Assembly (NCBI RefSeq): GCF_000006445.2
Contig: NC_006045.2
Coordinates: 1 to 64,000, forward strand
Origin: Debaryomyces hansenii CBS767
Taxonomy: Eukaryota; Ascomycota; Pichiomycetes; Serinales; Debaryomycetaceae
Length of the DNA: 64,000 bases
Reading direction: 5' to 3'
In this document: positions 1,265-58,688 of the stretch, in pieces
Layout of the letters: every line of letters begins with the position of its first letter
How positions within the stretch are numbered: position 1 is the stretch's first letter
Made by a program: the position numbers and the translations under genes
Notes under the pieces: model-generated
What the model was told of the DNA's origin: nothing
The model's database searches: none
Seen by the model: the letters and a program-made list of their open reading frames with translations, nothing else

Positions 1265-4200
1265 CTAATCTTCATCCAGATAATCCAGCTCCAGATAATC
1301 CAGATCATCTACCACAGGATCATTCTTAGGGATCTTGGGCCCTTTCCGAGCAACGCTTTTAGGGGAATCTGACGGAGCAAAGAACCTTCCCAACGGCGAT
1401 GCCTGCAAACTCTCCGTTATTCTTTGGCGGAGATGCTGGGGAGAAAGCAAGGACCGGCGCGGCGTCTCGGGAAACGAGGGAGGCGATCCTAAAGAGCGCG
1501 CGCTGGGAGGCTGCTTTGGCTGCTTTGACTGCTTTTGCACGCGCGTTGGGTGGGAAGACCCAGGAACGGCCAGGCTTTGCGTGCTCGATTGATAGATAAG
1601 GGGGTGCACCCGCCTGGCACTCAGATTCGGCGTTGGGGGACCCGATGGCATGGCTCGAGGACTTGAGGGGCCTGAGGGGCCTGATGGGCTTTCGCTACGG
1701 AATAACCGTCCACTCGTTGCAGACAGATATAGATGGACGTCTTTGACTTTTAGGGTCCTGACTGGGGTGACAGGAGAAGCTAGGGCTGCACTTTCTTTTT
1801 CTCGTTTCTCCTCTGCCCGTTTTCTTTCCCTTTTCTCTCTCTTCTCTCTTTTCCTTATCTTTTCTTTCTCCTCTCTTTTTCTGATCTTTTCCTCTCTTTT
1901 CCTGATATCTTCCTCTCTTTTACTGATCCTTTCTTTCTCCTTCCTCTTCCTTTCCATTTTTCTCTCTTTTCTTTCCTTTTTTTCTCGACTATGGCGTTTT
2001 CTCGCTCCCAGAAGCACTTCTCGAGACACATGCGCATCATATAACGGCGCGCCTAGATATGCATCTTGCGGAGGTAAAGCAAACCCAGAAGATGCAGGAG
2101 CGTGATATGGAGCAATGGGTGCGTGGTAGGGAGGTGAGAAGGGAGGACGATAACCTGGGAGCTGGTGAACATAAGGGGACGAAGCGTGGTTTGGGGAGAG
2201 GCTCGAATCGTTCCACGAAACAGACACTGGAGGGGCGTCGGGAGCTGGAGGTTCAGAAGGTGGAACAGCAGAAGGTTCAAGCGGAGGAACAGGCGTAGGA
2301 TCAGAGCCTACAGCCCTATTATAATCTATGCGAGGAATTTCCATAAGCATATCCGAAATAGAATCAACCTCGTCATCTGCATAAACAGGATTCCCGCCAA
2401 TATCATCACGCAAGGGTTCAACTTCCTCAACCTCGTCATCTTCATAAACAGGATTCCCGCCAATATCATCACGCAAGGGTTCAACTTCCTCAATCTCTTC
2501 ATTGACAGGGCTAGCCGGGTCAATTGAAACATCAGATGCCACCACCTCATCCACATCACCCGGCTCACCCTCCGGCTCAACAACCTCACCCTCGAAACCG
2601 ATAAACTTCCGACGCAACCCCAGCCGATGCCAGACCTGGCCCAAATGACGGGACCGGAGCACATCGGCGGCGTTGACTGATGGCGGATAATTCGCAATCG
2701 TCCCGTAATGCTCCGTGGACGTGGCCACCGAATGGCCCAGGGTCCGCGCAATGGTCTCGTAAACCAGACGGTACATGTCGAGATCTGCAGTCACGCTTTT
2801 GGTGTAATGGAACTCGATGCACCGCTTGAGGATCTGGCGCACCTCACAGAACTTATACTCGCGCTGGTTATCCATGCCGTACGTGAACCAATACAGGACT
2901 CCTCTCCGGATCTTGTCCGGCAGCATCGCATCAAACTGGTACAACTTCTCACTGCTCTCCACACGCGACAGCTCCACGTACATCCGCCTGAAGACGAGCA
3001 CATACCACAAAAACAACAACGACAATTCAGGACCGATTTCCCGGATGATGGGGTCTTTCGAATTGGCCGACTTGTTATAGTTATAGCAAAACCCAAACGT
3101 GGGGCCAAGAAAGTACACACCCCGATACTCCTTGGACGTGCCCTCCACCGATAATCGGTCGATCTCAGTTGACCGTGCCGGCAAGCACAGGATATGGAGG
3201 AGCGTGATGAGGATGAGCGACAAGTTGGTGTGTGCTTTCCGGAACAGGTCGATGTTGTTGTTATGGATCGAGAGCAATCGGTGCTTATATCGCGAATACA
3301 GCGGTACTCTCACGCACTCCGTAAACGAAACCATCCCGTCGCTGAGCCGAGCGTTGTCAACGGAGTAGTCCAATTCTTCACCATTCGACAAATCCTGGAT
3401 GGTTTCCTGTGCAAGGTCGTACAACCGGCCGAATATCTTGCTGATCATATTCGTGTGGCCCACAACCACGTTGTCGCTGTTGAAGATGTCTCCCGTGGAA
3501 AAGTTGAGGCGAAAGAGATTACCCTCGCTTCGAGCCAACGATAGCCCGAGATATGTATAATGGGTGCGCACCTGGGCCAATATGCGGTACAGACCGGTGT
3601 CCACAACAGACGGATCCTCAGCGTCTCGAAGCGATACGCGGCGGGTGCGCGCCCGTTTGATGATATCCAACAAAACACACGTCTTGGCCACATAGCATAT
3701 TCCGCTCAACGACCGGCAATACTGCTTGGTCGGATACTTAGCCCCTAGGTACCCGAGGTACACCACAAACGCATTTTCGTTTGACGTATTTTGTTCTTCT
3801 TCTTCTTCGGCATTATTGTTGACGCCATAGACCGGATAGTACAAACTGGCCAAAGACTCAGCAGCTGTTTGCTGCTGCGAGGACGACATTGTTGTGTTCA
3901 TGGCCTCCAAATACACCTCTGGGGTTTCATTGTTGTCGTCGCCGTCCTCATCCAAGATACCCGCGGCTATGGCATCACTCTCAATATCGATATCTGGCTG
4001 CTGCTGCTGCTCATCCCCCGCCACAGAAAGGTTTTCGTCGAACTCCTTTCTTATGCAGTGGTCCATGATCCAATGCACGAGCTGGTCGATGTCACGAAGG
4101 GACGACTCGGTAAACGTCTGGTCCAAGATCCGCGTGCGCTCCTCGGCCGTGATGAACTGCGAGTAGCCTGTCAAATTGTGATAATCACGGGAATTGACCT

Positions 4201-4663
4201 CCAACACAACTTCATCGTCTCTATACTTATCAAGCATCTCAGTGAGCGCCAAGGAGGCCGCAGGTTTGGGTCCGTACATCAATACCATGTATACTAGCTC
4301 GGCCATGTACTTGCTGTACTGCACGCACGTCAGGTATGTCTGGACTGCGCGGAAATACGTAGATGGGCGGCGGTTAAAGTTATTGGAGGCGCGCCCGGTG
4401 TTATTGGCGGCGCCTTTGAAAAGTCGCACCACTTCGAGTCCCGCAAGATTGACATGGTTGATGTTGGCGCTGAAAAGTGTCATGGCACCCACCAAGAGCT
4501 GGGCTATCTTTGGAACAAAATTGGCCTCCTTCATACCTTTGACCTGGATGTCCACCATTTCTCGGTCCACCTCCTGGAGAATCTTTTTCACCAACGGATG
4601 GTGCTGCAGGTCGGGCACAGTGGTTGTCCGCAGGTTCTGGACGGTTGTCGCAGTCCCTGATAA

Positions 4664-4702
<39 letters not shown>

Positions 4703-5410
4703 AGGACCATCCCTGGCGCGGGCCTCCACATAGCCGTCGTCGGTGGGACAATAAACCTCAAAGTTGGCAGGCCGGAGACCATACCTCTGCGGGAACTTTT
4801 GGAACGCCATGGGTCGGATCGAGTCCCGCTGGATGCATGAGTGGCGACTCAACTCGCCATACCTTCTTCTGATGATACCGCAGCCGCAGCCAAAACCAAA
4901 GTGGATGGGCACGGCCTGGAGCGGCATGCATTGTGGACTGAGCTTGCCGCGGGCGTGTTCGAGTCCTGGCTCACCCATCTCGCAACTGAGCACAAGCTTC
5001 AGACTGAGCTCGTCCTTGGCCCGCAGCAACTGCAAGGCCCCGCGGAACAGTGTCATCTTGCACATGATGGCCTGTGCGTACCTCTCAAATAAAAGCGACC
5101 GGATGATATAGTTTTTCCGGGGGTCTCGGTGGAACACCACCACAAGTCCGATCTCCTTGTGAATTCCCAACCCTAGCTGGGGGTCAAAGTAGTAATCACT
5201 GACATCATAGTTGATGGGTGTTTCGGACACATCACGGAGCTTGGTGTCTTTAGTCAGCCCGAATTCGTAGCTAAATTGCGCTGCGTACGTCTCCTCGTAT
5301 TCCTCATGCAGCATGTAATGTTCGTCTCGGGGTTCCTGGACCCCGTCATCACCGTACCGTTCGAAAAACTCCTCCATCGAGGGGAAGTTAGCATCATCAA
5401 GAACAGACAT
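1265..5410 (-). CDS. Tyrosine-recombinase-like subtelomeric protein
   Basis: Intact frame of about 1381 aa from the ATG at 5410; an in-frame start at 5461 would not be ATG. Two blocks resemble the tyrosine recombinase/integrase fold: LPARSTEIDRL (around 3165, Arg box) and YRLVYETIARTLGH...STEHYG (around 2700-2780, Arg, LGH and candidate nucleophile Tyr). The spacing is closer to the domain found in large fungal subtelomeric RecQ-associated proteins than to XerD, and the HxxR His is not evident. Other features are a Ser run, a twice-repeated 21-aa acidic segment, a Pro-rich stretch and a Lys/Arg/Glu-rich charged region (about 1790-2020). GC is about half, well above the neighbours. Five decayed fragments occur in this window. 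The recombinase role is inferred. Confidence 0.6.
2375..2500 (-). repeat. 63-bp in-frame tandem duplication
   Basis: Two nearly identical 63-bp units inside the recombinase-like gene each encode a 21-aa acidic segment containing VEPLRDDIGGNPVY. The near identity suggests recent expansion by unequal exchange or slippage. Confidence 0.85.
4665..4700 (-). repeat. Trinucleotide repeat (GAC)12, encodes poly-Ser
   Basis: Twelve uninterrupted GAC units on the + strand, read as TCG Ser codons in the minus-strand gene. Length variation here would stay in frame. Confidence 0.9.
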
Positions 5411-5537
5411 GGTTTTGTGTTGTTGAAATAAAAAGAAATAATAAAGTTGGGGAGGAAACATACTGGCTTTAAGAGGACTGGAAGTGCTGGATTGAATGGC
5501 TGGCTCGGCGCAATCGTGCTGGTCCAGAATCCTGATC

Positions 5538-6179: not shown

Positions 6180-6500
6180 CGCATTGAATATTGTTGTAGA
6201 AACTTTTCTAAGCTTTATCTCTATCAAATAGGTTTGCACACATTTATTCTTGATTTAGGCTTTTCGAGCATCAAGTTAGAAATTCATTTGTTGTGTCATT
6301 GAATGGTCACAGGATTATAAACACAAGAGCATTTGAAAATAAAGTAGATAGAATAAAATTTACAACAGAGCTGATGTAATACAATCTTACCTTTACTGAA
6401 CAAACATTTACGACATTGCACCCGCGACATTGCACCCAATCGGGTGTGCACCTTAACTATGAGAAAAACGCCCAATCTTCAAGTGCAGGGTATAAAAGTC
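6180..6500 (+). promoter_or_regulatory. Family A upstream module with TATA box
   Basis: Conserved with 39370-39745 and, in its last ~80 bp, with 11995-12075. Recognisable pieces are GCGACATTGCACC, GTGTGCACCTTAACTATG and GTGCAGGGTATA (6483-6494), the last running into TATAAAAG about 175 bp before the ATG at 6671. The same order occurs before both intact family A genes, which supports a promoter role. It belongs to a wider set of (T/G)GCAGGGTATA motifs in this window. Confidence 0.7.
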
Positions 6501-6670: not shown

Positions 6671-8596
6671 ATGCCACGAATGTATTTTTCAGGGGTAGAT
6701 AGTGATATTATCACATACGATGACCCTGAGAATCGATGCATTAGGGTAAATCTTGATCTATTTATTAGGGTTCTCAATAACAATGAACAAAACACGAGAG
6801 TCTTCTTGGACACTCACTTGCTTAAGATTCGGGGTAATGAAGATGGGCAAGAACCTCGTGCAGAGAAATTAGTGTCTAAGGGTAATGCATCAGTGGGTCT
6901 AGGGAATATGCCTTCTATACCTATTGTTGTGTATACTAGTCGTGCATTGATTACTGCTGAATTTAGGGAGATGAGTAGTGATGATTTCAAGGATAGGTAT
7001 CTTGCTCCTCTTGATAGTGTTCTTAGAGAATCGAATATTTGCCGTCTACCTTTAGCACGAGAATATGCTTACCCACGGGGAGATGCAGTGCATATGGAAC
7101 AAGCTATCCAAAGCTACTTTAATGAAATATCAATCCCGATCAGGGGACTTTTTCAAGACCTTGGTGATAGAGAAAACAATTTTGGCTATGTATCGTTTAT
7201 AAGACCCCCATTAGATCAAAAAAGAATGATACAACCAGATATCATTCATATGTTAACTAGGTCGAATTTAAATACACAATATCCGGAAGATGTTTTTGGA
7301 ATAGGTGATTACAAAACGGGAATATATAAAATGACGCAAGGCTTTGAAGAATTCAAGACAGCTATTCTGAACCGAAGAAGATTGAGGCTGCATTCCATTG
7401 GGAATTTCTTCCCAGATAGAGAGTGGTCGCCTAGAGTATTATTTGCGTTGGTTCTAAGCAAATATATCTACCAAGCTTTCCTCTGTGGAACCGATAGGAT
7501 TCTTATTTCAGACCATCAAACATTCTCAGGATTCTTTAGGTATGAAATAGTGGATGGCGAAATGATTATAGACTACTATGTCATTAATAATCCAGAAACT
7601 GTGGAGAATGGCATCACTTTAAGGTCGGCTATAGCAGGATTTTTTTATAAGAATGTTGCCGATACAGCTGATACGAAGGCCAGGTTGATGAAAAGTTTTG
7701 ATATAGCCAACAACACCGGGATAAAAAAACTTGAAGAGCTGGATCCATTTTTCAACGTTCGTCCTAGAGATCCTTCTGGATCTTCGGGAAAATTAGCGAG
7801 ACGTGGATTTTCAGGCAACTTAGATTCGGTAAAAGAAAACGACGCCAGTGATAACTTTGATGCTATTGATGGTAACACATATTGTCGAGTTATATACGAT
7901 TCCGCAGAATTTTATCCTGATTTGAAACTTCCATCGCCAGTTTTTGTCAAACTATACTACTACTCTAGTCGATTGTGGGAAGAGAATAGTTTGATGTGTT
8001 TGGAGATACCGGAAAAAGAGGGGTATTATGGCATGTTTTTCAACGAGCTTTTAATTAATGAAAGAATTGCTAAGTCAGAATTCGCTTCTAATTTCCCAAA
8101 GCTCCTTGTGTCTGGTTATTGGAACGGGCTTTCTGATCATCCGATGCATATATTTGAATACCTTGGGAAGGAGGTCCCAGAAGAAAAGTGGAATAACAAA
8201 GAAGTGTACAAAGTTATCAAATCAAGACTCGAAGAGCTTCATCTGATAGGAATTTCGCATAATGATATTAGGCTAGCCAACATTCATGTGTCTGTTTCTG
8301 GTAAGATATCTTTGATAGATTTTGGATTATCGGACTGCACAAATAATGAAGAACACAAGAAGAATGATTTTGAGACTCTTGACTACATATTGAGAGCAAA
8401 TGGTTCTAATGAAAATTATAAGCATGCCAATCGAGTTAGTAGCGAAGCTATATCTGCTGATAGAGCAGATGAAGATGACAAATATGGAAATGATAGTAAT
8501 CCTTCTAGTGAAGAAGTATTTGATGAAGGGAGTTCAGGAACTTTTGGTACCCAAATAACGATAGAAGATATTGCTTCAAAACCATCACGAAGATAA
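6671..8596 (+). CDS. Family A nuclease-kinase fusion protein (A1)
   Basis: 641 aa from the ATG at 6671, chosen because it aligns with the start of the paralogue at 12236; the longer frame opens at a TTG. The N-terminal half has a PD-(D/E)XK-like signature: PD at residues 189-190 and GDYK with D213 and K215. The C-terminal half has protein-kinase hallmarks: Lys 427 in VFVKLY, HND with Asp 532, Asn 537, and DFG at 550-552. All main catalytic positions are present. The acidic tail looks disordered; there is no signal peptide or membrane segment. This resembles REase-kinase architectures known among fungal FunK1 and Crinkler-type proteins (family knowledge). About half identical to A2, so an old duplication with both frames kept. 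CTG at 8243 fits Ser. Confidence 0.75.
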   Translation: MPRMYFSGVDSDIITYDDPENRCIRVNLDLFIRVLNNNEQNTRVFLDTHLLKIRGNEDGQEPRAEKLVSKGNASVGLGNMPSIPIVVYTSRALITAEFREMSSDDFKDRYLAPLDSVLRESNICRLPLAREYAYPRGDAVHMEQAIQSYFNEISIPIRGLFQDLGDRENNFGYVSFIRPPLDQKRMIQPDIIHMLTRSNLNTQYPEDVFGIGDYKTGIYKMTQGFEEFKTAILNRRRLRLHSIGNFFPDREWSPRVLFALVLSKYIYQAFLCGTDRILISDHQTFSGFFRYEIVDGEMIIDYYVINNPETVENGITLRSAIAGFFYKNVADTADTKARLMKSFDIANNTGIKKLEELDPFFNVRPRDPSGSSGKLARRGFSGNLDSVKENDASDNFDAIDGNTYCRVIYDSAEFYPDLKLPSPVFVKLYYYSSRLWEENSLMCLEIPEKEGYYGMFFNELLINERIAKSEFASNFPKLLVSGYWNGLSDHPMHIFEYLGKEVPEEKWNNKEVYKVIKSRLEELHLIGISHNDIRLANIHVSVSGKISLIDFGLSDCTNNEEHKKNDFETLDYILRANGSNENYKHANRVSSEAISADRADEDDKYGNDSNPSSEEVFDEGSSGTFGTQITIEDIASKPSRR

Positions 8597-9558
8597 TGCA
8601 TACTCACAAGCTATTTTTTTATCTTATTCATTTGAATCTTGATATTTGCCAGGTATTATTTGACCAAAGACTCGACACAAGTGTTGTGCTTGTTTTTCCT
8701 TCTCGGTATAAGCATTCACCTGCCTGGAACTTATCTAATGCCTTAAAACTATCACTCTCATCTTTCAACTCCCTAGCACTTCCACACTTTCTCTGTTAAC
8801 TATTTATTAGCTAGAAATGACTTACTACATAACTTGCTTGCATCAAACTCGTAATTGCTGGATATGCTGGTTTCAAGGGGACTACTGTACTTTACATAGT
8901 TAATTGATTAAATAGCATGTCGATCCCACAAAGCGTAACCTGCGAATCGTAGCGTGCGACCCATCAGAAACAACAAAATGCAAGTTATGGTTGTGTCAAA
9001 TAGAAGTGATACTTTATATTCGAATTTTACAATGTTGCATTTTATCTATCATAGAGTTGCACACGTTAAGTTTTGATTTATGCCTTTCTAGTCATTTGTG
9101 CTAACTTCGACCAGTTTAAAATAGCTTTCATGCATAGGAATGGTTTATTGAATAGGTATCTATGGTCCACATATTGGATGCCTCTGCATGCGCAACTGGT
9201 TACATTTTTCTAGGAACAATTAATTGCGACTATTTCACTTGTTAGAAGCAAACCGCTAAGCTTTAACAATTTCATGTGCATTATTAATTTAAATAATATG
9301 ATACATAGTCCTTCTATTGATTGGAGCATGGCTATTTAAAATTATCAATATTCTATTTTTTGCTCTGTTTATTTGTTTGGAAGTATCATGACGTCATGTT
9401 ACTCTCAAAAGTAAATAAAAACCAGTTTGATCATGGGCTTACAGGTTATAGTTGAGTTGAAGCGGTCTTGCATCCCTCTCGCCTAAACCTAATATTCTAT
9501 TCCATTTCTAAGAAATACGAATATAGATCGCGCCCAATTGTAGGGTATAATCATTCTT
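8597..9558. other. Intergenic between A1 and B1, repeat relics
   Basis: This lies between the convergent 3' ends of A1 and B1. 8905-9110 resembles 39240-39430, part of the larger family A upstream module. 9361-9423 is a copy of the dispersed palindrome element, and CAATTGTAGGGTATA lies near 9535-9549. No gene was seen. Confidence 0.6.
9361..9423. repeat. Dispersed palindrome element, copy 1
   Basis: GTTTATTTGTTT, then a near-palindrome at 9382-9403 with arms AGTATCATGAC and GTCATGTTACT (one mismatched pair, centre TGACGTCA), then CTCTCAAAAGTAAATAAAAA. The same order recurs at 16.7, 33.1, 43.0 and 48.6 kb. Confidence 0.75.
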
Positions 9559-11523
9559 CTAATATCTATATTTTTCTGGAATAGGCTGTTCAAATACTTC
9601 GCACAATTCTCTGTGTTCACTCTTCTTAGTCTCTTCATTAGCAGTTATAGGCCTAGAACGCTTTTCGTCGTTATCATCATAATTAGAATACCCAAAATCG
9701 ATAAAATAGACTTTCCCTTTGTAATAGAGAATATTTCTCAAATTAATGTCCCCGTGTATTATCCCATTTAAGTGGATTATTTCCAATTGTTCTTCAGCCT
9801 TTTTATAAGTTTCCTCGTCCAATGGACATTTCGTTTGACCCAAATACTTTAATATGAGAAATGGTCCCAAAGCGTGGTAGTGTTCGCCGATATTGAACTT
9901 ACCAAAAACACATTGCTGATCAATGTAAATGCTGTTAAATTTTAGATTAGATATTAGCTTTTCATAGGCTTTCTTCTCACACAGATATGCTCTTCGGCAT
10001 TTGCCGAAAATATCAGTTTTGTCGACCGTATAACTATCATGTTTTCTCTTGGCCTTGATTGGATCAAAGACCTTAACAATCAATTTGTCGCCTATCCCAA
10101 TATTTTCTCTTAAATAATCTTTTACCTCTTTAATATCTACTTTGAAAAGTTGAGAATTGAAACTAAACCCACTTTGCACATCAATTTTGTCAAACTTTCC
10201 AAGACTTATACTTGTATCAGAAAGGCAAAGGCGTTGCTCTTTAATCCTATAAGCATCGATACAGAAATTTCTATAAGCTGCTTCATATTTCTCGGCTAGT
10301 CCATCAATATAAGTCAAGTATTCTTCGTCTGTCTTACGAATATACTTATAGATCTTTTCTAGTCCTCTCTTAATCTCATTTAATAGAATCGCATCGACGT
10401 TGAATGCCTCATAGATAAATGAAATGAGTCCACCTCTCAAAGTAAGTCCCGACGAGTGACAATCCAAGATCTTATAATTGAGAGCTATATGCTTGCTGGA
10501 ATCCAAAAGCTCTGTACTATGCTTGATTGCCTCCAAACTCCTCTCGATATCTATTTCAACCAATATCGTTGTATAAGAGTCTGTTAGCATGCCTTTGTTA
10601 GTGTGGTTAGAAAACATTTCCGCGACAACTTGAACGAAGAATCTAACCATTTTTGAATCATTAAAGTTTATCACTTTGTTTCCCTTCAAAAGTGGTAATT
10701 TTTTGACCTCCACAATAGCTAATGATCGGCAATGTATTTTCTCCGTATAAGCTACAATATCCGGATGAGAATAAAATAAATCATTTGTTGTGTGAGGTAC
10801 TCTGGTTTGCACTCCTGTCTGACCAACTGTATTTCTCTCCTCAACTTCTATTTCAAAGCCCAATAAAGCAGCAAGATATTCACTTAGGGGTGTAAACAAA
10901 TATTTCAGAAAATTATCTCTGTAAGTTGCTTCAGCCTTCGACCCAATATGTTTAACAAGTTTATGCTTTGATTGAAAACCAACACAGAGCAAATTTATAA
11001 TTACCCTTTTTCTTTGATCTTCATTAAAAGTGCTTGAGAATATATTTGTTTTCAAAATACTTTGCAAATTATCTGCAAGCCTGTCATTTGGAATTTCTTG
11101 GTTCAGCGATTCAAATTCTATATTTGAAAAAGTCCCAATTAGAAGGTTGTCAGTAGCTTCACTCGGACAAGCAATACGAAGAGTATCGGGATTCAACAAA
11201 TTTCCATCTTTGCCTTGGAACTCGTACTCCGTGAATGGCATAACACAAAAGAAAATAAATAATTCTTTCCATTTATCTGGATGATCTTTATAATGCAACC
11301 TCACATGCTCCATATCTAAGTCAAATACATTCTCAATTTCAAACATTTTGCGTAAAATTTCTTGATAACTCACATTCTGAATCGCTCTCTTTTCGAATAT
11401 TTTTCTGTAGTCGAATTTCGTAATCTCAAATTTATCAATATCCATATCAATATCCATACCAGTATCCTCATCACCTCCTAAAATATATCTCCTAATATTA
11501 TTGCGAAAAGTATTGTTGTTCAT
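9559..11523 (-). CDS. Family B nuclease-kinase fusion protein (B1)
   Basis: 654 aa, ATG at 11523. The nuclease-like half contains HPDIV (Asp 255) and IVEVKK (Glu 272, Lys 274), a textbook PD-(D/E)XK pattern, followed by LTLRGGLISFIYEAF, which parallels LRSAIAGFFY in family A. The kinase-like half has LIVKVFD (Lys 484), HGDINLRN (Asp 592, Asn 597) and DFG from 609. It is strongly diverged from family A but shares the domain order. It is divergent from A2 across about 710 bp. Decayed relatives lie at 55.5-57.2 kb. Function is unproven; an effector, selfish or defence role is only inference. Confidence 0.75.
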   Translation of the reverse strand: MNNNTFRNNIRRYILGGDEDTGMDIDMDIDKFEITKFDYRKIFEKRAIQNVSYQEILRKMFEIENVFDLDMEHVRLHYKDHPDKWKELFIFFCVMPFTEYEFQGKDGNLLNPDTLRIACPSEATDNLLIGTFSNIEFESLNQEIPNDRLADNLQSILKTNIFSSTFNEDQRKRVIINLLCVGFQSKHKLVKHIGSKAEATYRDNFLKYLFTPLSEYLAALLGFEIEVEERNTVGQTGVQTRVPHTTNDLFYSHPDIVAYTEKIHCRSLAIVEVKKLPLLKGNKVINFNDSKMVRFFVQVVAEMFSNHTNKGMLTDSYTTILVEIDIERSLEAIKHSTELLDSSKHIALNYKILDCHSSGLTLRGGLISFIYEAFNVDAILLNEIKRGLEKIYKYIRKTDEEYLTYIDGLAEKYEAAYRNFCIDAYRIKEQRLCLSDTSISLGKFDKIDVQSGFSFNSQLFKVDIKEVKDYLRENIGIGDKLIVKVFDPIKAKRKHDSYTVDKTDIFGKCRRAYLCEKKAYEKLISNLKFNSIYIDQQCVFGKFNIGEHYHALGPFLILKYLGQTKCPLDEETYKKAEEQLEIIHLNGIIHGDINLRNILYYKGKVYFIDFGYSNYDDNDEKRSRPITANEETKKSEHRELCEVFEQPIPEKYRY

Positions 11524-12235
11524 CGTAATTAATATTGTGATGAATAAAAATTCGGTATTCTTTTTTCTTGTGGAGACTCCATCAATTTATGGGAAATCGA
11601 ATAAAGTTAGCATAAAAGAAATAATTGTTTCAGAATTCTCATTGAAGGAAGTATTGTGATTTTGTGGGGTTTTCGAAATGCGAACATCACGAAAAAAACT
11701 GATAATATCAAGATTAATTAATGAGTTAAGTAATACCGCAGATGTTAAAAACAGGAAGATATTGATGTAGTGGGAGATAAAAGAAGACAGATAATTGCAT
11801 AAACAATTTCGATATTGATTCTAAGCAGCCACCCTATTTTATATATTCATAAATTGATCAAATGGATGACGGTATCAGACTGTGTAACAACTTGCAATCC
11901 TACAGTGCGACTATACCACATGAAAACAATTTGCAAGTTGTAGTAGTGCCTACAATTCTGCTCTCCCCACCTCTCTTAGTTACTAGTTTAGCAAACATTG
12001 CGACATTGCACTACGACATTGCACTATACCACTTGTGTGCACCTTAACTATGGGAAATCTCCAAGTGCAGGCGATAAGTCATATGCAGTACATGTAATCT
12101 CACAATCCGTTTTTCTTTGTAACACTTACCAATTCGTTCAAGACGGTTTATTACATAATCAAACTCGGGGTAACCCCATATCAATAAATAAGGGATGAAA
12201 TTACAACCACAGCTCTCAATACTTAACATATTATC
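11524..12235. promoter_or_regulatory. Divergent B1/A2 intergenic region
   Basis: About 710 bp between the B1 and A2 start codons. 11995-12075 carries the family A block: GCGACATTGCAC (with GACATTGCACTA repeated), GTGTGCACCTTAACTATGGG and GTGCAGGCGATA (12063-12074), about 160 bp before the A2 ATG. A shared region would allow coordinated expression of a B and an A protein, but that is inference. Confidence 0.65.
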
Positions 12236-14188
12236 ATGCCATGTATGTACTTTTCGGGCGAAGATAGTAACAATATTACGTATGATGACCCCGCAAATAA
12301 ATGCATTAGGATTAATCCATCATTATATGCTAGGGTTCAAGATGACAATGAACAAAACATAAGAGTTTTTTTAGACACTCACCTTTTGAAAATAAGAAAT
12401 ATCTCACACAATCAAAAATTACCTACGTTGGAACATATAATATCCAAGCATAATGCTTCAGTTTCCACTGGATCCACGACTGTGATGCTGGCCCTAAATT
12501 ATGTTACGAAAGCGATGATGACGGCAGAATTTAGAGAGATCAGTAGTGATAAGTTCAAAAATACATATTTGGCTCCTCTTGATAAGGTTATGAAAGATTC
12601 CAATTTGAATGGTCGATTCCTATTGCCTGAATATTATTATCCGTTGGGAGATGCCAGGCATGTGGAAGATGATATTCAGATATATTTTAATGAAGAAATA
12701 GCTAATTCAATCAAGCGTTTTTATCGTGACATATTGGATGAATACCACCATTTTGGTTACGCATCAAGTATCACACCTCCGTTGTCGATAAATCCAAACT
12801 TTAAGCCCGATATTGTCCATGTGTCTTGGGATGAGGCTTTAACTCGTCAAAATCCAGATATTTGCTTTGCGATAGGAGATTATAAGACAGAAAACTATTT
12901 TTTAACTAAAGGACTTCAAGAATTGAAATTAGCTATAACGGACTTTGTAGAAAAGCGCTTGAACTTGAAACAATTGAGACTGCATGAAAACCAGCACATA
13001 TTTGAAGATCGAGAATGGTCGCCTAGAGTTTTATGCGCATTAGTTTTAAGAAAATATCTTTATCAAGCCTTTCTCTGTGGGACAGACAGAGTGTTTATCT
13101 CAGATCATCAGTCATTTTCGGGGTTTTTCAAATATGAGATTATGGATGATGGAAAAATGATCATAGACTACTATGTTATTAATGGTCCCGAGACAGTGGA
13201 ACATGGCATAACTCTAAGGTCAGCGATAGCAGGCTTTTTTTATAAGGATAATACAGAGGCGCTCAGTACAAAAGAGAAATTAGCAGGACTAATTGAAATA
13301 AGTCAGAAAACCAAAGGGCCAGATCCATTAGCGAATGTGCTTCCTCGACTTGTGGAAGAACCCACACCAAGTCGTAAACGGAAACGTAGTAAGATTTCTG
13401 GAAGTCAACTTCGAGAAAGATTGATAACTATAGAAGAAAGCTATGAAGTTGACTTTGATGCCATTCGAGGTAACACATTTTGTCGCATAATATATAATCC
13501 TGCTGCATCTTTTCCTAATTTGGGATTGTTGCTTCCGTCCACAGTCTTTGTTAAATGGTACAACTATTCTGAGCAGGCTCAAGAAAATTTTCCAGATAAA
13601 GATAGTTACTACGACATGTACGTCAATGAACTTGAAATTAATGAGATACTTGCAAGTTCTCGCTTTGCTGCAAACTTTGCAAAGCTTATAGTTTCTGGGT
13701 ACTGGAATGGTATTCCAAGCCAGCCGATGCATATATTTGAAGATTTGGGAGAAGAAATGCCATCTACTGAATGGGATAAATTTAGGGTGCATAAAGTAGT
13801 TAAGGAGAGGCTCACGGAACTCCATCTGTTGGGAATTTCGCATAATGATATTAGACTCGACAATATACATGTTTCAATATCGGGAAGGATCACTTTGATT
13901 GATTTTGGGTTAGCTATTTACCCAAGTAGTGAAGAGCGGAAAAGAAGAGACATTGAAGCTCTTAACGAGATTATTCCTATTGTTGGTCATGGGAATAACG
14001 GCCAGTATGAAATACAAGATGGTATTCTATGTGCGGACAAGGATTCGGAAAGCAAATATAATGAAAGCAGGTGGAATGATCATGCAAATTCTAGTATTGA
14101 AATGGTTTTTGACGAACTGGTTTTAGAGTCTGATGATACCCAAGGGTCTACTAAGGTTGATTTCCATTCGAAGTGTGATGAAACTTGA
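12236..14188 (+). CDS. Family A nuclease-kinase fusion protein (A2)
   Basis: 650 aa, ATG at 12236, intact. Collinear with A1 over nearly its whole length. Nuclease-like residues: PDIV (Asp 192) and GDYK (Asp 215, Lys 217). Kinase residues: VFVKWY (Lys 440), HND (Asp 538), Asn 543 and DFG from 556. A basic patch (SRKRKRSK, about residue 380) between the domains could be a nuclear signal. CTG at 13826 sits in the position of LH-x-(I/L)GI where kinases commonly have Ser, as in A1. Preservation of both active-site sets in diverged copies suggests selection. Confidence 0.75.
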   Translation: MPCMYFSGEDSNNITYDDPANKCIRINPSLYARVQDDNEQNIRVFLDTHLLKIRNISHNQKLPTLEHIISKHNASVSTGSTTVMLALNYVTKAMMTAEFREISSDKFKNTYLAPLDKVMKDSNLNGRFLLPEYYYPLGDARHVEDDIQIYFNEEIANSIKRFYRDILDEYHHFGYASSITPPLSINPNFKPDIVHVSWDEALTRQNPDICFAIGDYKTENYFLTKGLQELKLAITDFVEKRLNLKQLRLHENQHIFEDREWSPRVLCALVLRKYLYQAFLCGTDRVFISDHQSFSGFFKYEIMDDGKMIIDYYVINGPETVEHGITLRSAIAGFFYKDNTEALSTKEKLAGLIEISQKTKGPDPLANVLPRLVEEPTPSRKRKRSKISGSQLRERLITIEESYEVDFDAIRGNTFCRIIYNPAASFPNLGLLLPSTVFVKWYNYSEQAQENFPDKDSYYDMYVNELEINEILASSRFAANFAKLIVSGYWNGIPSQPMHIFEDLGEEMPSTEWDKFRVHKVVKERLTELHLLGISHNDIRLDNIHVSISGRITLIDFGLAIYPSSEERKRRDIEALNEIIPIVGHGNNGQYEIQDGILCADKDSESKYNESRWNDHANSSIEMVFDELVLESDDTQGSTKVDFHSKCDET

Positions 14189-16806: not shown

Positions 16807-16859
16807 CTTCCAATTGCAGGGTATAGGATCCCAACGTCTATTTCTTTTGACGCTGCAAA

Positions 16860-17519
16860 ACCTTTACCATGGTAATCCAAATTCCGTAAGTCCTTCATTA
16901 TCTACCCCTATGTGATGACTTAATATTCTAGATATTCCTAAGGCGTTTGAGTTTTTGGAACTACATATATATAAATGTGGCTCTTTTCCTGTTTGAATGC
17001 TGTCATTTGAAAAATTTCTCGGTAGCGCATATTTTTTCCTTTGGGATATTGCAGAATGCATTTTTAGATTTTAAAATGCCTTGTTTCTCTTTGACAGGGT
17101 TATTCAATTGCAATAAGCAATAAATTCCATCATTTTTTACCACGATTATTCACAGTTAATCAAAAAAGAAGTTAAAAGGAATTTACTACCACCTATTCAA
17201 ATATCCTAACTGAAAAATTATATATCTCACTAGCAATCCCGATTAGGATGTAGTATCTGGAAAGGATGGAGCTCTTATCTCCTGATTCCGTGAAATACGA
17301 ATTATGACGAATAACTTTGAAGTATTAATTGAATGAGGCAAATTCAGCCTCATTCTCATCCTTACGGGAAAAATAAGAACCTCAAGGTTTATAATTTATA
17401 ATAGAGAACGCCACAGTTTTCGAACATTGGGTATATAAAGAGATGAACCGTGTAACAATGAAATACAATTAAAACTATGAACCGAACTGGGTTGTTTTAA
17501 TACAGTGATACGTCCAAGA
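16860..17519. repeat. Diverged inverted repeat, left copy
   Basis: The reverse complement matches about 22865-23545 over the whole length, including the promoter and leader of the transporter at 17520. It also covers a minus-strand 65-codon frame (16864-17061) whose counterpart in the right copy shows similar peptide words (NSNAL, LTEF), so it may derive from the end of a lost protein. The two copies bracket about 5.4 kb containing two transporters. Confidence 0.75.
17429..17439 (+). promoter_or_regulatory. TATA box of the Dal5-like gene
   Basis: GGTATATAAAG lies about 85 bp upstream of the ATG at 17520. The corresponding site in the inverted copy near 22980 is degraded. Confidence 0.5.
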
Positions 17520-19106
17520 ATGGCTGAAAAGCAAACTGAATCTGAGTCTCTTTCTCAAGCATCTGCAGCTTCTTCTGTAGATGCGCTTAACAGCGACGAA
17601 GACGCTATAGTCAGTACTAAATATGCTGATGTAGCAGTTTCATTTATGCAAGCTCATGATTCCCAAACTCCTATTATTACTCCTGAGCAAGATATGGCGC
17701 TCAGTAGAAAATTGTTATGGCGCGTCTTGGGTCTTACTTTTTTAATCAACATGATTATGTATATGGATAAAGCTACTTTATCATACAGTTCCATCTCTGG
17801 ATTCTGGGAAGCTACTGGATTAGACCAAAATAAATATAATAATGTTAACACAATTTTTTATGTTGGGTTCATCGTCGGTCAATTACCAGGTACTTATTTA
17901 ATTCAAAAATTATCAATCAGTAAATTAATTTTTGGTATTACATTTTTTTGGTCCATAGATATTTTCTTGCATTGTGCGGCTTATAATTATGCGGGTGTTA
18001 TAGTGTTAAGGTTTTTCCTCGGATTACTTGAATCGGTTGCAATACCAATTATGCTTACCACCAATGGTATGCTTTTAAGTCAGCATGTTAGAGAACTGAC
18101 TCAACCAGTTTTCTACGCTTCATGTATGGCATCACCTATTCCAATTGGGTTCATAAGTTACGGTGTCTTGTACGCTGGTGCTGACATTGGTGATTGGCGA
18201 GTCTTGAATATTATTATAGGTGGATTAACCTTAATCTTATCTGTATTTGTTTTCTTCTCATACCCAGATAATCCAATTAATGCATCTTTTTTGACCACAG
18301 AAGAAAAAGTCTGGGTCATTAGAAAAGTTCAAAATACTTCCCACCAGTCTATTGAACAAAAAATGTTCAAAAAGCATCATGCAATTGAAGCTTTCAAGGA
18401 TCCAATTTCTTGGTTAATCGTTGGTTTCTTCCTTTTACAACAGTTAGCTAATAACTTACCTTATCAGCAAACAATCTTATACGAAGAAATGGGTGGATTA
18501 AGTAATTTAAACTCAACTTTAGTGACAGTTGCAGGTGCTGGATTTGCTGTACTTTGGTCATTAGCTGCATGTCTTTTTATGATATGGAAACCAAGAAAGA
18601 CTTGTCTCACAATTATTTGGACCACCTTACCATCCCTTGCCGGTTCAATTGCAGCTGTTTCCCTTCCATTGACTAATGCTATAGGTGTATTGGCAGCTAT
18701 TTCCTTAGCCTCACAATCCTTTGGTGTTGGATGGATTTGTGCATTTGGTTTAGGACAAACGACTGCAGGTGCAAGTTATACCAAGAGATTGGTCAGAAAT
18801 GCAATGTTCATGGTTTCATATTCTGTTGCAAACATTATCTCACCACAACTATGGAGAGCTAAGGATGCTCCTAATTATATCCCTGCATGGGTTGTTCAAA
18901 TTGTGCTAAGTTTTTTCACTGCCCCAGTTTTGATTGGTACTGTATGGTTTATTTTACATAGAAGAAACAAAGAGAGATTAACAACTTTGGATGAAAAACT
19001 GAAGGTTGGTCATGTCAAGAACGATGAAGGTGAAGTTTTCGAAGTTAACGTTGTTGCTTTAGACCTTACAGATTTAGAAGATAAAACTTTCATTTACCCA
19101 ACTTAA
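17520..19106 (+). CDS. MFS anion:cation symporter, Dal5-like
   Basis: 528 aa from the ATG at 17520; the upstream in-frame GTG is not preferred because TATA spacing and the duplicate copy support this ATG. After a Ser/Ala-rich cytosolic N terminus there are about 12 hydrophobic segments, with YMDKATLSYSS in TM1, VGFIVGQLPGTYL, LRFFLGLLESVAIP and FFSYPDNP in the central region. This pattern belongs to the allantoate/carboxylate permease group (Dal5, Thi73, Yct1 relatives), plasma-membrane importers of organic anions. The substrate cannot be read from sequence. A decayed 5' end of a second copy lies at 22865. Confidence 0.8.
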   Translation: MAEKQTESESLSQASAASSVDALNSDEDAIVSTKYADVAVSFMQAHDSQTPIITPEQDMALSRKLLWRVLGLTFLINMIMYMDKATLSYSSISGFWEATGLDQNKYNNVNTIFYVGFIVGQLPGTYLIQKLSISKLIFGITFFWSIDIFLHCAAYNYAGVIVLRFFLGLLESVAIPIMLTTNGMLLSQHVRELTQPVFYASCMASPIPIGFISYGVLYAGADIGDWRVLNIIIGGLTLILSVFVFFSYPDNPINASFLTTEEKVWVIRKVQNTSHQSIEQKMFKKHHAIEAFKDPISWLIVGFFLLQQLANNLPYQQTILYEEMGGLSNLNSTLVTVAGAGFAVLWSLAACLFMIWKPRKTCLTIIWTTLPSLAGSIAAVSLPLTNAIGVLAAISLASQSFGVGWICAFGLGQTTAGASYTKRLVRNAMFMVSYSVANIISPQLWRAKDAPNYIPAWVVQIVLSFFTAPVLIGTVWFILHRRNKERLTTLDEKLKVGHVKNDEGEVFEVNVVALDLTDLEDKTFIYPT

Positions 19107-22066: not shown

Positions 22067-22859
22067 TTTGCTTATTGAAGAGAATATATCTCTATCATAA
22101 TCAGAAGGTAGAGAGCATTTATGTACCAATAAATAGGGCTATTCTCTTCTTGATGTAAGATAATTTCAGTGGCTTCAAGAAAACACATTTTCTGCATGAA
22201 AAACATCATTTCCAATACATAGTGCTTAAGAGAAGCCATATATAAAATTTCAATCAAACAGTGCCTCAATTTCTATCACAGGCAAATATACGCAGTCCTA
22301 GAATCATCTTCACGTTTAATTCTTGTATCACCTTCCTAATACGTTCCCTCAATGGTGATATTCCTCATAGACAGGTTTTTTTACCGTGTAAAAAAACCAA
22401 GATTTCAGACAATAGAAGTGAAATTCATGACTGGTAATTGTCAGCTGTCTAGTATATTATAATTTATTCATTCCAGCATGTACTTAATTGAATTACAAGA
22501 TAATAAGCTATAAAATTTTATTTCGAGTTAGAGAAAACATAATAAGTTTGGTACTTTTTTACTCATCAATTACACCCCTTTAGCTTAGCGCTTAACGCAT
22601 ACAGCGTGGCGACTTACTAAAAGAGGCTCAAAACCTCAACGCTTCATATGCAATTTCCAAGCGACTAATATTTCTATTGAATTCAACGAGTAAGTTGTGA
22701 ATGTATTAAATCTTGTACATTTGTAATGTCTTAACTGTATATTGCTACTATTGATTTAACCTTCTATTAAAGAACTATAAAAAAGGCATAAAAAATAGAT
22801 TATTAACTGTTCTCTATTACATTTGTTTGTTTCAATACTCTAACTTGACATATGCTTGA
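22067..22859. other. Upstream region of the Fen2-like gene
   Basis: About 800 bp, AT-rich, with no gene seen. Short inverted pieces flank TTTTTTTACACGG near 22380-22400. Confidence 0.4.
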
Positions 22860-22925
22860 GAGACAGAATCAGAGTCAATATGCCTTTCAGATATTCTTGA
22901 GCGTATCACTGTATTAATTCAAGCC
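22860..22925 (-). pseudogene. Decayed 5' end of a second Dal5-like gene
   Basis: The reverse complement aligns with the leader and first ~15 codons of the gene at 17520 (shared words include ACAGTGATACG and CTCAAGCAT). The initiator is ATA instead of ATG, and similarity stops near 22860. The rest of the gene is absent. Confidence 0.7.
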
Positions 22926-23620
22926 CTGTTCGGTTAATGTTTTGATCGTTTTTCATTGTTACATGGTACATCTCTTCATATACCAAAACTTGAAAACTGT
23001 GGCGTTCTCTATCGTAAATTATAACCGTTAGGGTTCTTATTTTTTCCGTAAGAATGAGAATGAGGTTCCAATTTTTAATTCATACTTCAAGGTTATCTGT
23101 CATAATTCGTATTTACGGCATCAGGAGATAAAAGCACCGTCTTTTTCCGATTCTACATATTAATCGGAAAAGGATGATGTATAAAATTTATATTAGGATA
23201 TGTTGAATAGATGGTAGCAAACTCCTTTTTAACTTATTTTTATGATTAGCTTTGAAGAATCGTGGTAAAAAAGGACGGACTCTTTTATCTATTGCAATTG
23301 AATAGCCCCGTCAAAGAGAAACAACATTTTCTAAAGTTTAGATAGCATTCTGCAATATCCCGAAGAAAAAAAAAATGCGTTACCAGAAACTGTTCAATTG
23401 GCTGCATTTAAAACGGAAAAAGAGCCACAGTTATATATACCCTGTTCCACCAATTCAAATGCCTTAGAAGTATCTAGAACATCAATTCATCACATAGAGC
23501 TAGAGCATGAAGAACTTACCGAGTTTCGGTTACAATGGTAACGGTTTTTTTGCGGCATTAAAAGAAAAAGAGGCTAGGGATCCACAATTATTTACATATT
23601 CAAGCTTTTCAGAAAAGCCT
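22923..23620. repeat. Diverged inverted repeat, right copy
   Basis: Reverse complement of about 16860-17490, with shared blocks such as ACTGTGGCGTTCTC and ATTGCAATTGAATA. On the + strand at 23350-23510 a frame reads words also seen in the left copy, so both ends once carried the same coding fragment. Now noncoding. Confidence 0.75.
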
Positions 23621-55550: not shown

Positions 55551-56735
55551 TCAACTCATACTTTCTATATTTGATAATTCATGTTCCTTTGGAGTTGGCG
55601 TATCAAATATACTGCACAACTGTCTATGCTCACTCTTGATCCTCCCAGGATTAGCACTCACTGGATTGGAACCTAATTTGTCTTCTGTGTATTCTGAGTA
55701 TCCAAAATCAATAAAATATACCTTCCCATGAGAATATAAAATATTCCTTGGGCTTATATTCCCATGTATTATGTTATAAAGGTGGATTATATCCAATTTT
55801 CTTTAGCTTTCTCATAGGTTTCTATATCACTTAGTAGCGTGTTTTCCTCTTGAGCCAAATACTTTAATATGATTAATGGTCCCAATGCGTAATGAGTTCC
55901 TATAAAGAACCTCCCATACACAGATTTTTGCGCAATATAAATGCTGTTAAACTTGAAATTAGGTACAAGCCTTTCATATGCACGCTTCTCACATAAATAT
56001 GCCCTTCGACAGTTTTCAAATATGTCTTGCTTTTTTATCATGTACTTATTATGATCTCTCTTTGCCTTTGCAGGGTCAAAAACTTTAACATTTAATTCAA
56101 CAGCTTCATCGATGTCTTCTCTGAGATAAATTCTTACGTCTTTACTCTCGACTTTGAAAAGTTGAGAATTGAACGTAACGCCACTTTGTACATCGATACT
56201 TTTGAAGTTCCCAAGTGCAGTCTTTGGTGTAATAACATGGAGCTGTCTCATAAATGCATTGTAATTATTTTTGAAAAATCTACCGGCTTTCTCGCCTAGA
56301 CCGTCAAAATATGTCAAAGTACTCCTCATTTGACTTACGAACATAGTCATAAATTGCATCTAGTCCTCTTTTAACGTCATTTAATTGGTATTCGTTAGCA
56401 CTAAATGCCTCATAAATGAATGAAATTAGCCCTCCTCTCAACGTAAGGCCAGATGAGTGACAACCTAGAAGTCTATAATTCAATGCTATGAATTTGCAGT
56501 TTCCAGAGCCTGTAAGTTTTTGATTGACTATATCCATGCTTCGTTCTATATCTATTTCAATCAAGATAGTTGTATATGAGTCGGCCAACATGCCTTTATT
56601 TGTGTGGTCAGAAAACATTTCCGCGATAACCTGAATCATAAAACTTACCCTTCTTGGTTCCGTAGAATTTACTACCTTTTCACCTTTCAAGATTGGTAAT
56701 ATTGCCTTGTGAATAAAGAATATTCCGATCACAAA
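55551..56735 (-). pseudogene. Family B nuclease-kinase relic (B2), catalytic Asp lost
   Basis: Collinear with B1 from LPILKGEKVV, just after the nuclease ExK site, to the C terminus. It has frameshifts near 56310 and 55795. Kinase Lys is kept (VKVFDPAKAK) and DFG is kept, but the catalytic loop reads HGN instead of HGD. The nuclease N terminus is missing because the right end is fused to the B3 fragment. Confidence 0.8.
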
Positions 56736-57172
56736 TATCTCCATGAAGTATTCTACAACTATGAATAATTTTCAATTGCTCTTCGGCCTTCTCATATGTA
56801 CTTCTATCTTTGGGCGATCTATTATATTCTCCTTTTTCGGGCTCTTATATTTTAATATGATAATTGGCCCTAGCGCATTATAATGTTCACCTATATTGAA
56901 TTTAACAAATACATATTTTTGGTCAACATAAACCCTATTGAATAACCCTTCATCTGAAAGAATCTCATATGCCAGTTTCTCGCACAGATAGGCCTTGCGA
57001 TATGTGTCGTAGGTATTTCTGTTCGTTCTGTCCTCTAATTATGATCCCTTTCCGCTTTAATGGGGTCGAAGACCTTTACAATCAATTGATGGTCATCATC
57101 AAAAGGCTCCTTAAATAAAGCCTCTACATCTTTCTTTTTCACCTTGAAAAGTTCCGAATTGAACTTAGACCC
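56736..57172 (-). pseudogene. Family B kinase-domain fragment (B3)
   Basis: Begins abruptly with KFNSELFKV and runs through LIVKVFDPIKAERDH, AYLCEKLAYE, FNIGEHYNALGP and HGDICDRNILY, with a stop and frame change near 57040. It then joins B2 directly. It keeps HGD, so it derives from a different B copy. The start lies about a dozen bases from the acetyltransferase relic. Confidence 0.75.
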
Positions 57173-57184
57173 ATACTATTGCGT

Positions 57185-58688
57185 TCATACGTCCGGAAAC
57201 AGTAGCACTCTTTCTGTAAACATTATTAGAAATTCATCAAGGAGTGGCTTGCTTGCGCTATTGTAAAGATATTCGTATTCAGAAGCATAACAGAAAACTA
57301 AATTCAAACATTTTTCTTGAGTTGTAACTAAATTCAATATAAAATGATACAAAGAGCCTGTAGACCAAACCATATATTTTCAAATTTCCAACCAGAATTT
57401 GCTTCATTCCTAAAAACCCCTAAGTTGGAAATTACAAGCGTGGTTTTTCCTTCAAGCTTACCAATTCTCTCCGAATAAAAGCTCCAAATATTTTTTTTTT
57501 TTTGAAGACCTTTTGATAGAAAGCAATTTTTATTACGGAGGGATGTAGACAATCTCAGGTATGCTGCTTTCATATAAGCCATTGTACGAATCTTGTTTGA
57601 AAAAGATGGCATTGGACCAAAGTTTAAGATTTCAGCTCCAACTAAGGTGCCATAAAGAAAATAAGGTAAATCATAGTATCTCCTTCCATTGACAGCAACG
57701 CACGATGATGTAGAAAACATCCCCATGTTGGGATCCTTAACAGCTGCAAACAAAGTTTCTTGTAGACATTGAAGGGCTATAATGTTAAAATATGGTGTAA
57801 GTGTTAAGTTTGATTTCTTACAAAAGCTAAGCATTTTTTCAACTTCTGCATTATTAAATGTCAAAGTTTTAAATTTTGTGGAAAGGTCTTTAGAAATTGG
57901 TTTGTATGTAAACGTGCTGTGATTCAGTAAATCAAGATAATATGGATCGAAATCTTGAGCCAGACTACCTCCAAAAAAAATTAAATTTCCTCTTGAAAAT
58001 GTTAAAAAAGAGGATACCCATTTGTATACAAAAAAACTTCTAAAACAATTCATCAACCTATAACGCAAAGGGACATCAAATATGTCAAGCATTTCTTCTC
58101 GCGCTTCCTCAATCTCACAGATATCTAATGTAGGGGTTTCATTGTTTTCAAATAATATAGACAATAACTTTAAGTCATCAGTATGTCCATCACTGGATAA
58201 ATTAGATAGTTCTCTTAAGAGTTCTTTATGAAATTCTAGACCAGAAATACCGTCGAATAGAGCATGGTCACAATAAAAACAAACGAACTGTTCTAAACGA
58301 TTATATCTATTTTCAAATATAATAACACGCCAAAGAGGGAGTGTTGGCTCATTCATCGGACACGTTAACTTATTTACTTCCTCCAAACGTTGCCATCAAA
58401 AGTAGATTCAATCGATTTGAAGGAAACGATGTCTTCAAATTTTATACTTCTTACCTTCCTTACTTCAAAATTTTCACCATTCATTATTTCATCCATATCT
58501 GACGAGCCAATTCGATAAAAGTTGAGAGTGAACCATGAATGTTTGCTAATTAATGCCTTCAACCCATGAGATAACAATTCAGCTGTAACTCTATGATTCA
58601 ATTTTACAGTCAAATTGAAATTGGTATAATATTTACTTGTATTTCGGCAAATATAGCTTCTTTCATTGAACCCAGGTCGCCTGGACAT
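57185..58688 (-). pseudogene. Alcohol acetyltransferase-like gene, two frameshifts
   Basis: ATG at 58688. The first frame ends near 58374 and resumes after a one-base shift at a T run (about 58385); a second shift lies near 57375, and the last frame ends at 57185. The middle part has the acyltransferase motif CDHALFDGISG (HxxxDG), as in the Atf1/AATase family that makes acetate esters from acetyl-CoA. N-terminal MSRRPGFNERSYI also fits. Recently decayed, or assembly errors. Confidence 0.72.

Follow-up and report, generated by a model that had tools for sequence, protein, structure and literature searches.

Spok genes, known from Podospora, Fusarium and other filamentous ascomycetes, encode a single intracellular protein in which a PD-(D/E)XK nuclease precedes a kinase. 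As reported in PMC6660238, they are multicopy, with gene conversion and pseudogenes, have homologues in filamentous ascomycetes, and include a killing-deficient allele that keeps resistance despite mutations in its nuclease domain; a preprint (PMC12930445) describes homologues in multiple filamentous lineages. The same preprint presents the tdk drivers, which carry a Mug135_C domain, as putative killers, with nine proteins in D. hansenii. Crinkler-type proteins also combine a REase with a kinase: according to a review (PMC5289972), about one in six Crinkler-type C-termini is such a fusion, and the REase is regarded as the toxic part (PMC5289972, citing Zhang et al. 2016). The wtf drivers of fission yeast, in turn, are numerous, and recombination within their family can give rise to a driver that is new and not cross-protected (PMC13160552).

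Nuclease-kinase genes at a chromosome end

Our window—the whole 64,000-nucleotide stretch of DNA that was analysed—is the left chromosome end of Debaryomyces hansenii CBS767. Three genes described here in an initial annotation are indeed intact, with reading frames open at 6671..8596 (+; A1, 641 aa, copy L012), 9559..11523 (−; B1, 654 aa, copy L031) and 12236..14188 (+; A2, 650 aa, copy L001), and each encodes a PD-(D/E)XK-type motif in the same protein as a kinase that has its catalytic residues. This group of yeasts translates CTG as Ser, so code 12 was used in later translations; the three frames are the same under it. B1 and A2 lie head-to-head and share the 712 bp between them (11524..12235, no strand assigned), the region proposed initially as a divergent promoter. 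A tandem CGACATTGCAC box precedes A2 (12001..12026, +) and another precedes A1 (6411..6437, +), and a degenerate B-family relic is present at 55581..57199 (−).

The two families extend far beyond these three genes. The genome has 20 A and 9 B ORFs of at least 520 aa, plus 10 B-like ones internal to the chromosomes, alongside many broken A and B copies; 23 of the 29 full-length A and B genes are subtelomeric (lengths of contigs C1, C2 and C7 being inferred from annotated records). For dN/dS, box and motif searches we used 38 distinct ORFs, one of three L055 ORFs being left out. A head-to-head A partner was found for five of nine B ORFs; since B lies head-to-head with both A1-type and A2-type partners, we rejected A and B as a cognate pair.

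A1 and A2 (51% identity) are two subgroups of one family, whereas B, initially described as a diverged subfamily, is a separate, second family whose homology to A is clear in the kinase alone: pairwise A–B alignment (E below 1e-7) is confined to that domain, at about 30% identity. DUF3698 (PF12479), an uncharacterised Pfam family for which we found no paper under its name or accession, matches all 64 of 64 A rows (A1, 142.6 bits; A2, 159.9 bits; cut-off 25), covering only residues about 184-289 of A2, and had no match in B1 in the Pfam scan. Global profile alignment of the A and B nuclease regions failed; local hhalign gave a probability of 8.6% (P 0.0039) around the TLR helix, with the motif residues unaligned, which is suggestive only of nuclease homology. 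Searches with the B alignment recovered close relatives only, the viral contigs searched yielded no match, and 12 loci in prokaryotic contigs matched in the kinase part only.

The kinase domain of A2 (residues 395-590; 13418..14005, +) carries K440, E465, H536-x-D538, N543 and D556FG, and that of B1 spans residues 451-625 (9649..10173, −); catalytic K, E, HxD, N and DFG, as well as the fold, are those of the protein kinase-like superfamily. TCAD9 and RIO1 were rejected for B1, their matches spanning the kinase core only. So was DUF5898 (Pandoravirus), which ranked third in Foldseek over 546 columns but with TMq 0.24 and rmsd 13.8; the one Pfam match examined was to a kinase loop (E 0.11), and a genome search for this family found nothing, though its controls were silent too.

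The motifs read initially as PD..DYK in A1 (PD189-190 to D213-Y-K215; 7235..7315, +) and A2 (PD191-192 to D215-Y-K217; 12806..12886, +), and as PD..EVK in B1 (PD254-255 to E272-V-K274; 10702..10764, −), were all found, and their key residues do persist in most A and B rows, beyond what chance would give. At the K217 position of the 64-row A alignment, 59 of the 63 non-gap rows have Lys; at D215, 55 of 63 have Asp and two more have Glu. D255, E272 and K274 are each retained in 23 of 24 B rows. The AF2 model of A2 is good and gives the nuclease domain the right topology, with the conserved PD and (D/E)xK of family A predicted at the right strands of the PD-(D/E)XK superfamily. For B, whose model is weak (pLDDT 62.7), the nuclease assignment is by residues only. 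Of the two folds expected from the initial annotation, the kinase was recovered both in structure prediction and in profile matches to kinase families. The nuclease was recovered as a predicted topology in A2, with no match in the structure-database searches, where the rows shown were kinases; because kinases filled these lists, the absence of a nuclease means little. Nuclease-region profiles against PDB returned chance-level rows only (E 0.038 and 0.063 at best, with an HNH endonuclease at E 1.2), as did a PDB search with the telomeric ORF. Motif and, in A2, predicted topology, rather than a structural match, support a predicted nuclease domain in A1, A2 and B1. The three genes belong to two families, both largely subtelomeric, of intracellular proteins that join this predicted PD-(D/E)XK nuclease to a kinase.

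Variable modules in the front part of the predicted nuclease domain

Where the flanks of A2-type paralogues differ by 4%, two short modules that open the nuclease domain differ by 29%. V1 covers residues 113-136 in both A1 (7007..7078, +) and A2 (12572..12643, +), and V2 covers residues 147-188 in A1, where it ends at the PD motif (7109..7234, +), and 149-190 in A2 (12680..12805, +). Paralogue groups independent of one another, and different species, show this hotspot again, in a comparison limited to pairs that had enough columns and whose flanks differed by no more than 40% (13 of 45 pairs in D. tyrocola and four of six in Priceomyces); its permutation test left out L007 and L009. V1 and V2 reassort between copies (L002 and L007, for example, have the same V1 but a different V2), their alleles are common to D. 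hansenii, D. tyrocola and D. fabryi, and their synonymous divergence is also raised, so that the modules look like old, shuffled alleles. Their dN/dS is 0.43-0.66, below 1. That module pairs are all distinct is not significant alone (0.23 and 0.26).

The explanation we favour, while holding it open to doubt, is that A1, A2 and B1 are selfish, single-protein toxin-antidote genes of the Spok kind with combinatorial specificity. In the scheme that we infer, the nuclease domain would damage nucleic acid, the C-terminal minimal kinase would neutralise the nuclease of the same protein wherever the gene is present, and cells or spores that hold the protein but not the gene would die. Two modules, V1 (about 113-136) and V2 (about 149-190), predicted to lie ahead of the first nuclease-domain helix and within it, would set the matching of kinase to nuclease, and their shuffling between paralogues could yield new, non-cross-protected versions. 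It is conceivable, if doubtful, that the 29 full-length genes form a combinatorial arsenal of selfish killers with specificity in the nuclease-front modules, drawing on a small trans-species set of module alleles such that each subtelomeric A copy is a different combination. Few spores form per ascus, which would limit meiotic drive. If the toxin-antidote explanation is true, a Spok-like family in budding yeast would be a natural experiment on how one protein both kills and protects; near-identical copies differing mainly in two modules would bear on the origin of non-cross-protected versions, with V1 and V2 together offering about 60 residues as specificity candidates.

Like Spok, A and B have the nuclease-type part N-terminal to the kinase and are multicopy, with gene conversion and pseudogenes; no Spok was named among the sequence-search matches. 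The Spok cluster C-x3-C-x13-C upstream of the kinase is absent: no C-x3-C-x(10-16)-C occurs in any of the 38 distinct ORFs, and we therefore do not class A and B as Spok. The Spok QxxxY, about 54 residues past the catalytic lysine, is not at the matching place in A, where it occurs only in L017 and L019, at 240-241, nearer the lysine and in a loop; in the L051 pair it is at 289. Unlike Spok, A has two shuffled modules at the nuclease front and a budding-yeast host; literature searches on Spok or drive in yeasts gave no such Debaryomyces genes among the matches listed. Spok, the closest characterised system, did not figure in the initial annotation, nor did the shuffled modules.

A family with many copies, largely subtelomeric, whose modules are hypervariable, old and shuffled would also resemble an immune repertoire. 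The genes could accordingly be guardians against plasmids, viruses or transposons; invaders would be recognised through the modules, and the nuclease would be held back or set off by the kinase. We consider such host defence unlikely: Pfam scans revealed no sensor domain, and defence by itself gives no reason to expect copies that lose nuclease residues while their kinase is retained.

Lesions and selection in the two domains

Point lesions in A proteins affect the nuclease in 11 rows versus the kinase in one, each row being counted separately, relatives included. The ratio is 9 to 1 (p 0.02) with L021, P0059 and P0054 counted once, and 7 to 1 (p 0.07) with two K-to-E rows (P0016, P0072) also removed. 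For this count 21 of 104 rows were set aside for gaps and P0001, identical to L001, was left out; the database rows include copies from the D. hansenii genome (P0059 being 99% L021). Three of the set-aside rows (P0062, P0063 and P0067) keep their nuclease residues and lack part of the kinase, and including them brings the ratio to 9 to 4 (p 0.27). P0077, also set aside, is 88% identical to P0064 and has kinase lesions, and P0057 has lost the His of HxD, yet was counted as kinase-intact. P0013 is identical to intact P0009 (565/565) and hence looks like a gene-model artefact. The 24 rows of family B contain one nuclease lesion (L055:2145-4007) versus two kinase lesions (P0096, L056).

An excess of nuclease over kinase lesions, seen in A but not in B, is what a nuclease toxin with a kinase antidote would predict, although the kinase-less rows weaken the fit. 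Together with the specificity-like shuffled modules, it lends indirect support, for family A, to the toxin-antidote idea that the initial annotation had raised. L021 is full-length and lacks the nuclease residues, as do its relatives P0059 (99%) and P0054 (82%); it is a candidate protection-only gene.

The selection suggested initially proved to be purifying, with a ratio of mean dN to mean dS of 0.34 for close A paralogues and of 0.18 for B (computed between paralogues, saturated pairs dropped). By group, dN/dS is 0.09-0.25 in the kinase and 0.13-0.43 in the nuclease. The A1-type C-terminal tail exceeds 1 (1.42; 2.65), on very few synonymous changes.

The lesion asymmetry is also compatible with a protein in which what matters is simply the kinase. 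In a kinase-led regulatory family, the kinase would work, the nuclease-like domain would mainly bind and the modules would be interaction specificities, and the low dN/dS of the kinase and the full-length proteins without nuclease residues, including the three above, are compatible with this. Yet D, D and K are all retained in 19 of 20 own A ORFs, which makes a pure binding domain unlikely, and two of the five groups show no tighter constraint on the kinase than on the nuclease (kinase / nuclease dN/dS of 0.17 / 0.17 in A distant and 0.24 / 0.21 in internal B-like). We judge this account improbable.

Remaining alternatives and family B

Old shared alleles and combinatorial diversity recall balancing selection, as would be expected if mismatched copies caused death on cell fusion or mating in the manner of fungal het genes. 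Many paralogues and many broken copies, however, would be more typical of a driver family than of single-locus recognition, and we give allorecognition little chance. An ordinary subtelomeric family, with copies kept alike by gene conversion and modules that are just a stretch under weak constraint and poor in conversion, would explain the homogenised flanks among paralogues and a module dN/dS that never rises above 1; it seems comparably remote in view of a hotspot recurring across independent paralogue groups and species, and of alleles that reassort, cross species and show raised synonymous divergence. A secreted, Crinkler-kind host effector is very improbable: D. hansenii is free-living, no LxLFLAK-type motif occurs within residues 1-80 of any of the 38 distinct ORFs and the three proteins checked have no strongly hydrophobic stretch. 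Of the Crinkler-type likeness drawn initially, the REase-kinase combination, seen in about one in six of the reviewed C-termini, matches the literature. The likeness to FunK1 fell away, this family being absent from all 21 Pfam families listed for the 64 A rows and from the best 25 of 28 for the 24 B rows.

Family B shares with A its architecture, location and a shuffled N-terminus; a toxin-antidote mode of action is less supported here. The variable N-terminus of B1 comprises residues 1-120 (11164..11523, −): against L034, residues 1-40 are 95% identical versus only 61-64% for 96-195, 196-400 and 451-625. A second variable stretch, residues 181-210 (10894..10983, −), would correspond to the start of the first nuclease helix, predicted at 198-221 in the weak model.

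As in the wtf drivers, A is a large family with recombination, while the wtf proteins themselves are different. The tdk drivers differ in having a Mug135_C domain rather than DUF3698 and a kinase, and this domain is absent from the A and B Pfam lists (for B, the best 25 of 28 families). It has 10 matches in the D. hansenii genome, and only the one at C4:1572010 has a listed A or B match as near as 10 kb or less.

Domain anatomy of the three genes

The window, bases 1–64000 of contig C3 in an eight-contig genome of 12.18 Mb, is probably the left end of a Debaryomyces hansenii chromosome. The initial annotation described three intact genes, and ORF analysis of the window bore this out: A1 (6671–8596, + strand) and A2 (12236–14188, +) of family A and B1 (9559–11523, −) of family B all have open reading frames. 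In a Pfam scan, A1 and A2 matched DUF3698 together with kinase models and B1 matched kinase-type models only; clear alignment between the families is confined to the kinase. No paper carrying the name DUF3698 or its accession, PF12479, was found in the literature searched. The nuclease motif (PD and DxK/ExK) is kept in relatives: this motif and the kinase residues are conserved in nearly all rows of a 64-row A and a 24-row B alignment, and in a larger A set 69 of the 83 rows having all sites retain eight of eight checked residues.

Of the two folds expected at the outset, structure searches confirmed the kinase and were silent on the nuclease because the matches listed were filled by kinases; nuclease-region profiles gave only chance-level rows against PDB sequences. 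PD-(D/E)XK enzymes have a canonical order of structural elements around their motif, and this is the order predicted around PD and DxK in the good AF2 model of A2 (mean pLDDT 78, pTM 0.67). The B1 model is weak (pLDDT 62.7). As modeled, the A2 kinase is a minimal lobe, stopping shortly past DFG with a helix at residues 566–579 and low confidence beyond. A Kdo kinase model was also matched by 39 of the 64 A rows (E up to 5); Spok kinases, too, have been placed nearer to eukaryotic-like kinases (PMC6660238).

Genomic copies and their arrangement

Searches with A2 and B1 returned at least 62 and at least 75 genome matches, respectively—lower bounds that each include kinase cross-hits from the other family. 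Open ORFs of ≥520 aa in the fetched loci comprised 20 A (L006 is a shortened one, and L007 starts at the edge of its contig), nine B and ten chromosome-internal B-like ORFs; many remaining A/B matches are broken. Fifteen of the 20 A and eight of the nine B ORFs lie no more than about 70 kb from the end of a contig, the lengths of contigs C1, C2, and C7 being inferred ones. The internal nuclease–kinase ORFs (L051–L056) share about 27–30% identity with B1; some are tandem, including near-identical pairs. Named database relatives come from D. hansenii, D. fabryi, D. tyrocola, Priceomyces, and Scheffersomyces, and many others are unnamed. Two DUF3698 proteins (P0011, P0018) assigned in the database to a metagenome bin of Staphylococcus equorum are probably yeast contamination, and D. 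fabryi P0013 equals P0009 without an internal stretch (shared residues identical, 565/565), probably through a false intron in the gene model.

Five of the nine B ORFs stand head-to-head with an A ORF (≤5 kb) and four tail-to-tail, two of the latter also being head-to-head with another; two have no A partner. Tandem copies of a CGACATTGCAC box precede both A1 and A2, the only sites genome-wide with the exact tandem (1–4 bp spacing). When up to one mismatch is allowed, seven of the 20 A ORFs have a box upstream, as do seven of the nine B ORFs with the box on the opposite strand; some of these boxes lie in an intergenic region common to an A and a B ORF and count for both. None of nine stored internal B-like ORFs has an upstream box.

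Module shuffling and asymmetric decay

Near-identical A copies diverge strongly at residues of about 113–136 (V1) and 149–190 (V2), at the front of the nuclease domain. Among A2-type copies, 15-codon blocks 121–135 and 151–165 differ by 37% and 27%, many blocks by 0–3%; a lesser peak in the C-terminal tail (586–600, 18%) is due largely to A2 itself. Synonymous differences are elevated in V1 and V2 too, and relaxed constraint alone is therefore not enough to explain the modules. The hotspot recurs in A1-type copies, L017–L019, and D. tyrocola, and more weakly in Priceomyces. With classes defined at 80% identity, L002 and L007 share V1 and differ in V2, L005, L006, and L007 share V2 and differ in V1, and A1-type copies reassort likewise; V1 alleles are also common to D. 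hansenii and other species. All 15 own subtelomeric A copies carry distinct V1–V2 combinations, which is not significant alone. Incompatibility tests, with L007 and L009 excluded, detected recombination in three of three groups (0/1000 permutations each). Family B varies at residues 1–120 and 181–210: over residues 1–40, L031 (B1) and L032 match L034, and L033 matches L035 and L037, at 95–100% identity, falling to about 55–65% past residue 95. Mean dN over mean dS, saturated pairs dropped, was 0.34 for both A2-type and A1-type copies; distant A gave 0.21 and family B 0.18.

Of the A rows in which every site is present, 11 have lost nuclease residues and kept those of the kinase, one (P0064) shows the reverse and two have lost both. 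The ratio is 9 to 1 (p 0.02) when the related L021, P0059, and P0054 are counted once, and 9 to 4 (p 0.27) on adding the set-aside rows P0062, P0063, and P0067, which keep the nuclease and miss part of the kinase. Given this drop, and nuclease-to-kinase lesions of 1 to 2 in family B, decay is a suggestive line of evidence for A only. The internal, full-length A gene L021 (G000:C6:1753254–1754960) has lost its nuclease residues (N, N) with kinase residues intact, and the motif is likewise missing from a match at 99% identity and a relative at 82%; L021 is a candidate protection-only gene.

Comparison with drivers and neighboring features

Spok is one polypeptide whose nuclease kills and whose kinase protects, with DNA as the SPOK1 target (PMC9972908); some Fusarium homologs are reported to act both as toxin and as antidote when tested in yeast (PMC12693581), and a new, non-cross-protected driver arose by recombination between wtf drivers (PMC13160552). 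Family A is consistent with Spok/wtf logic: it joins a putative nuclease to a kinase, is multicopy and mosaic, varies most where nuclease specificity could lie, and has its point lesions mostly in the nuclease. The Spok cysteine cluster is absent here and likeness was judged by domain architecture and motifs, so we consider the family Spok-like in its probable working and do not call it Spok. Mug135_C (tdk-type) domains occur at ten places in the D. hansenii genome, only one of them (C4:1572010) being less than 10 kb away from any of the A or B matches listed.

Nearest the chromosome end, where bases 1–2000 are strongly G-poor (GC skew −0.43), lies a GC-rich 1398-aa ORF (1265–5461, −) with no Pfam match above cut-off; by its signature, the middle part may be a tyrosine recombinase. 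Five open full-length copies (97–98% identity) lie near contig ends, and many relics elsewhere. A 272-aa ORF (33330–34148, −) matched no Pfam family at E 0.1; with its hydrophobic N-terminus it looks, by eye, secreted. Two duplicated genes (28168–29366 and 31391–32589; 68% DNA identity) comprise a Gig2-like copy and one broken into two ORFs, respectively, and an inverted repeat of about 740 bp (16826–17565 and 22849–23583; 79% identity) lies near transporter-like genes.
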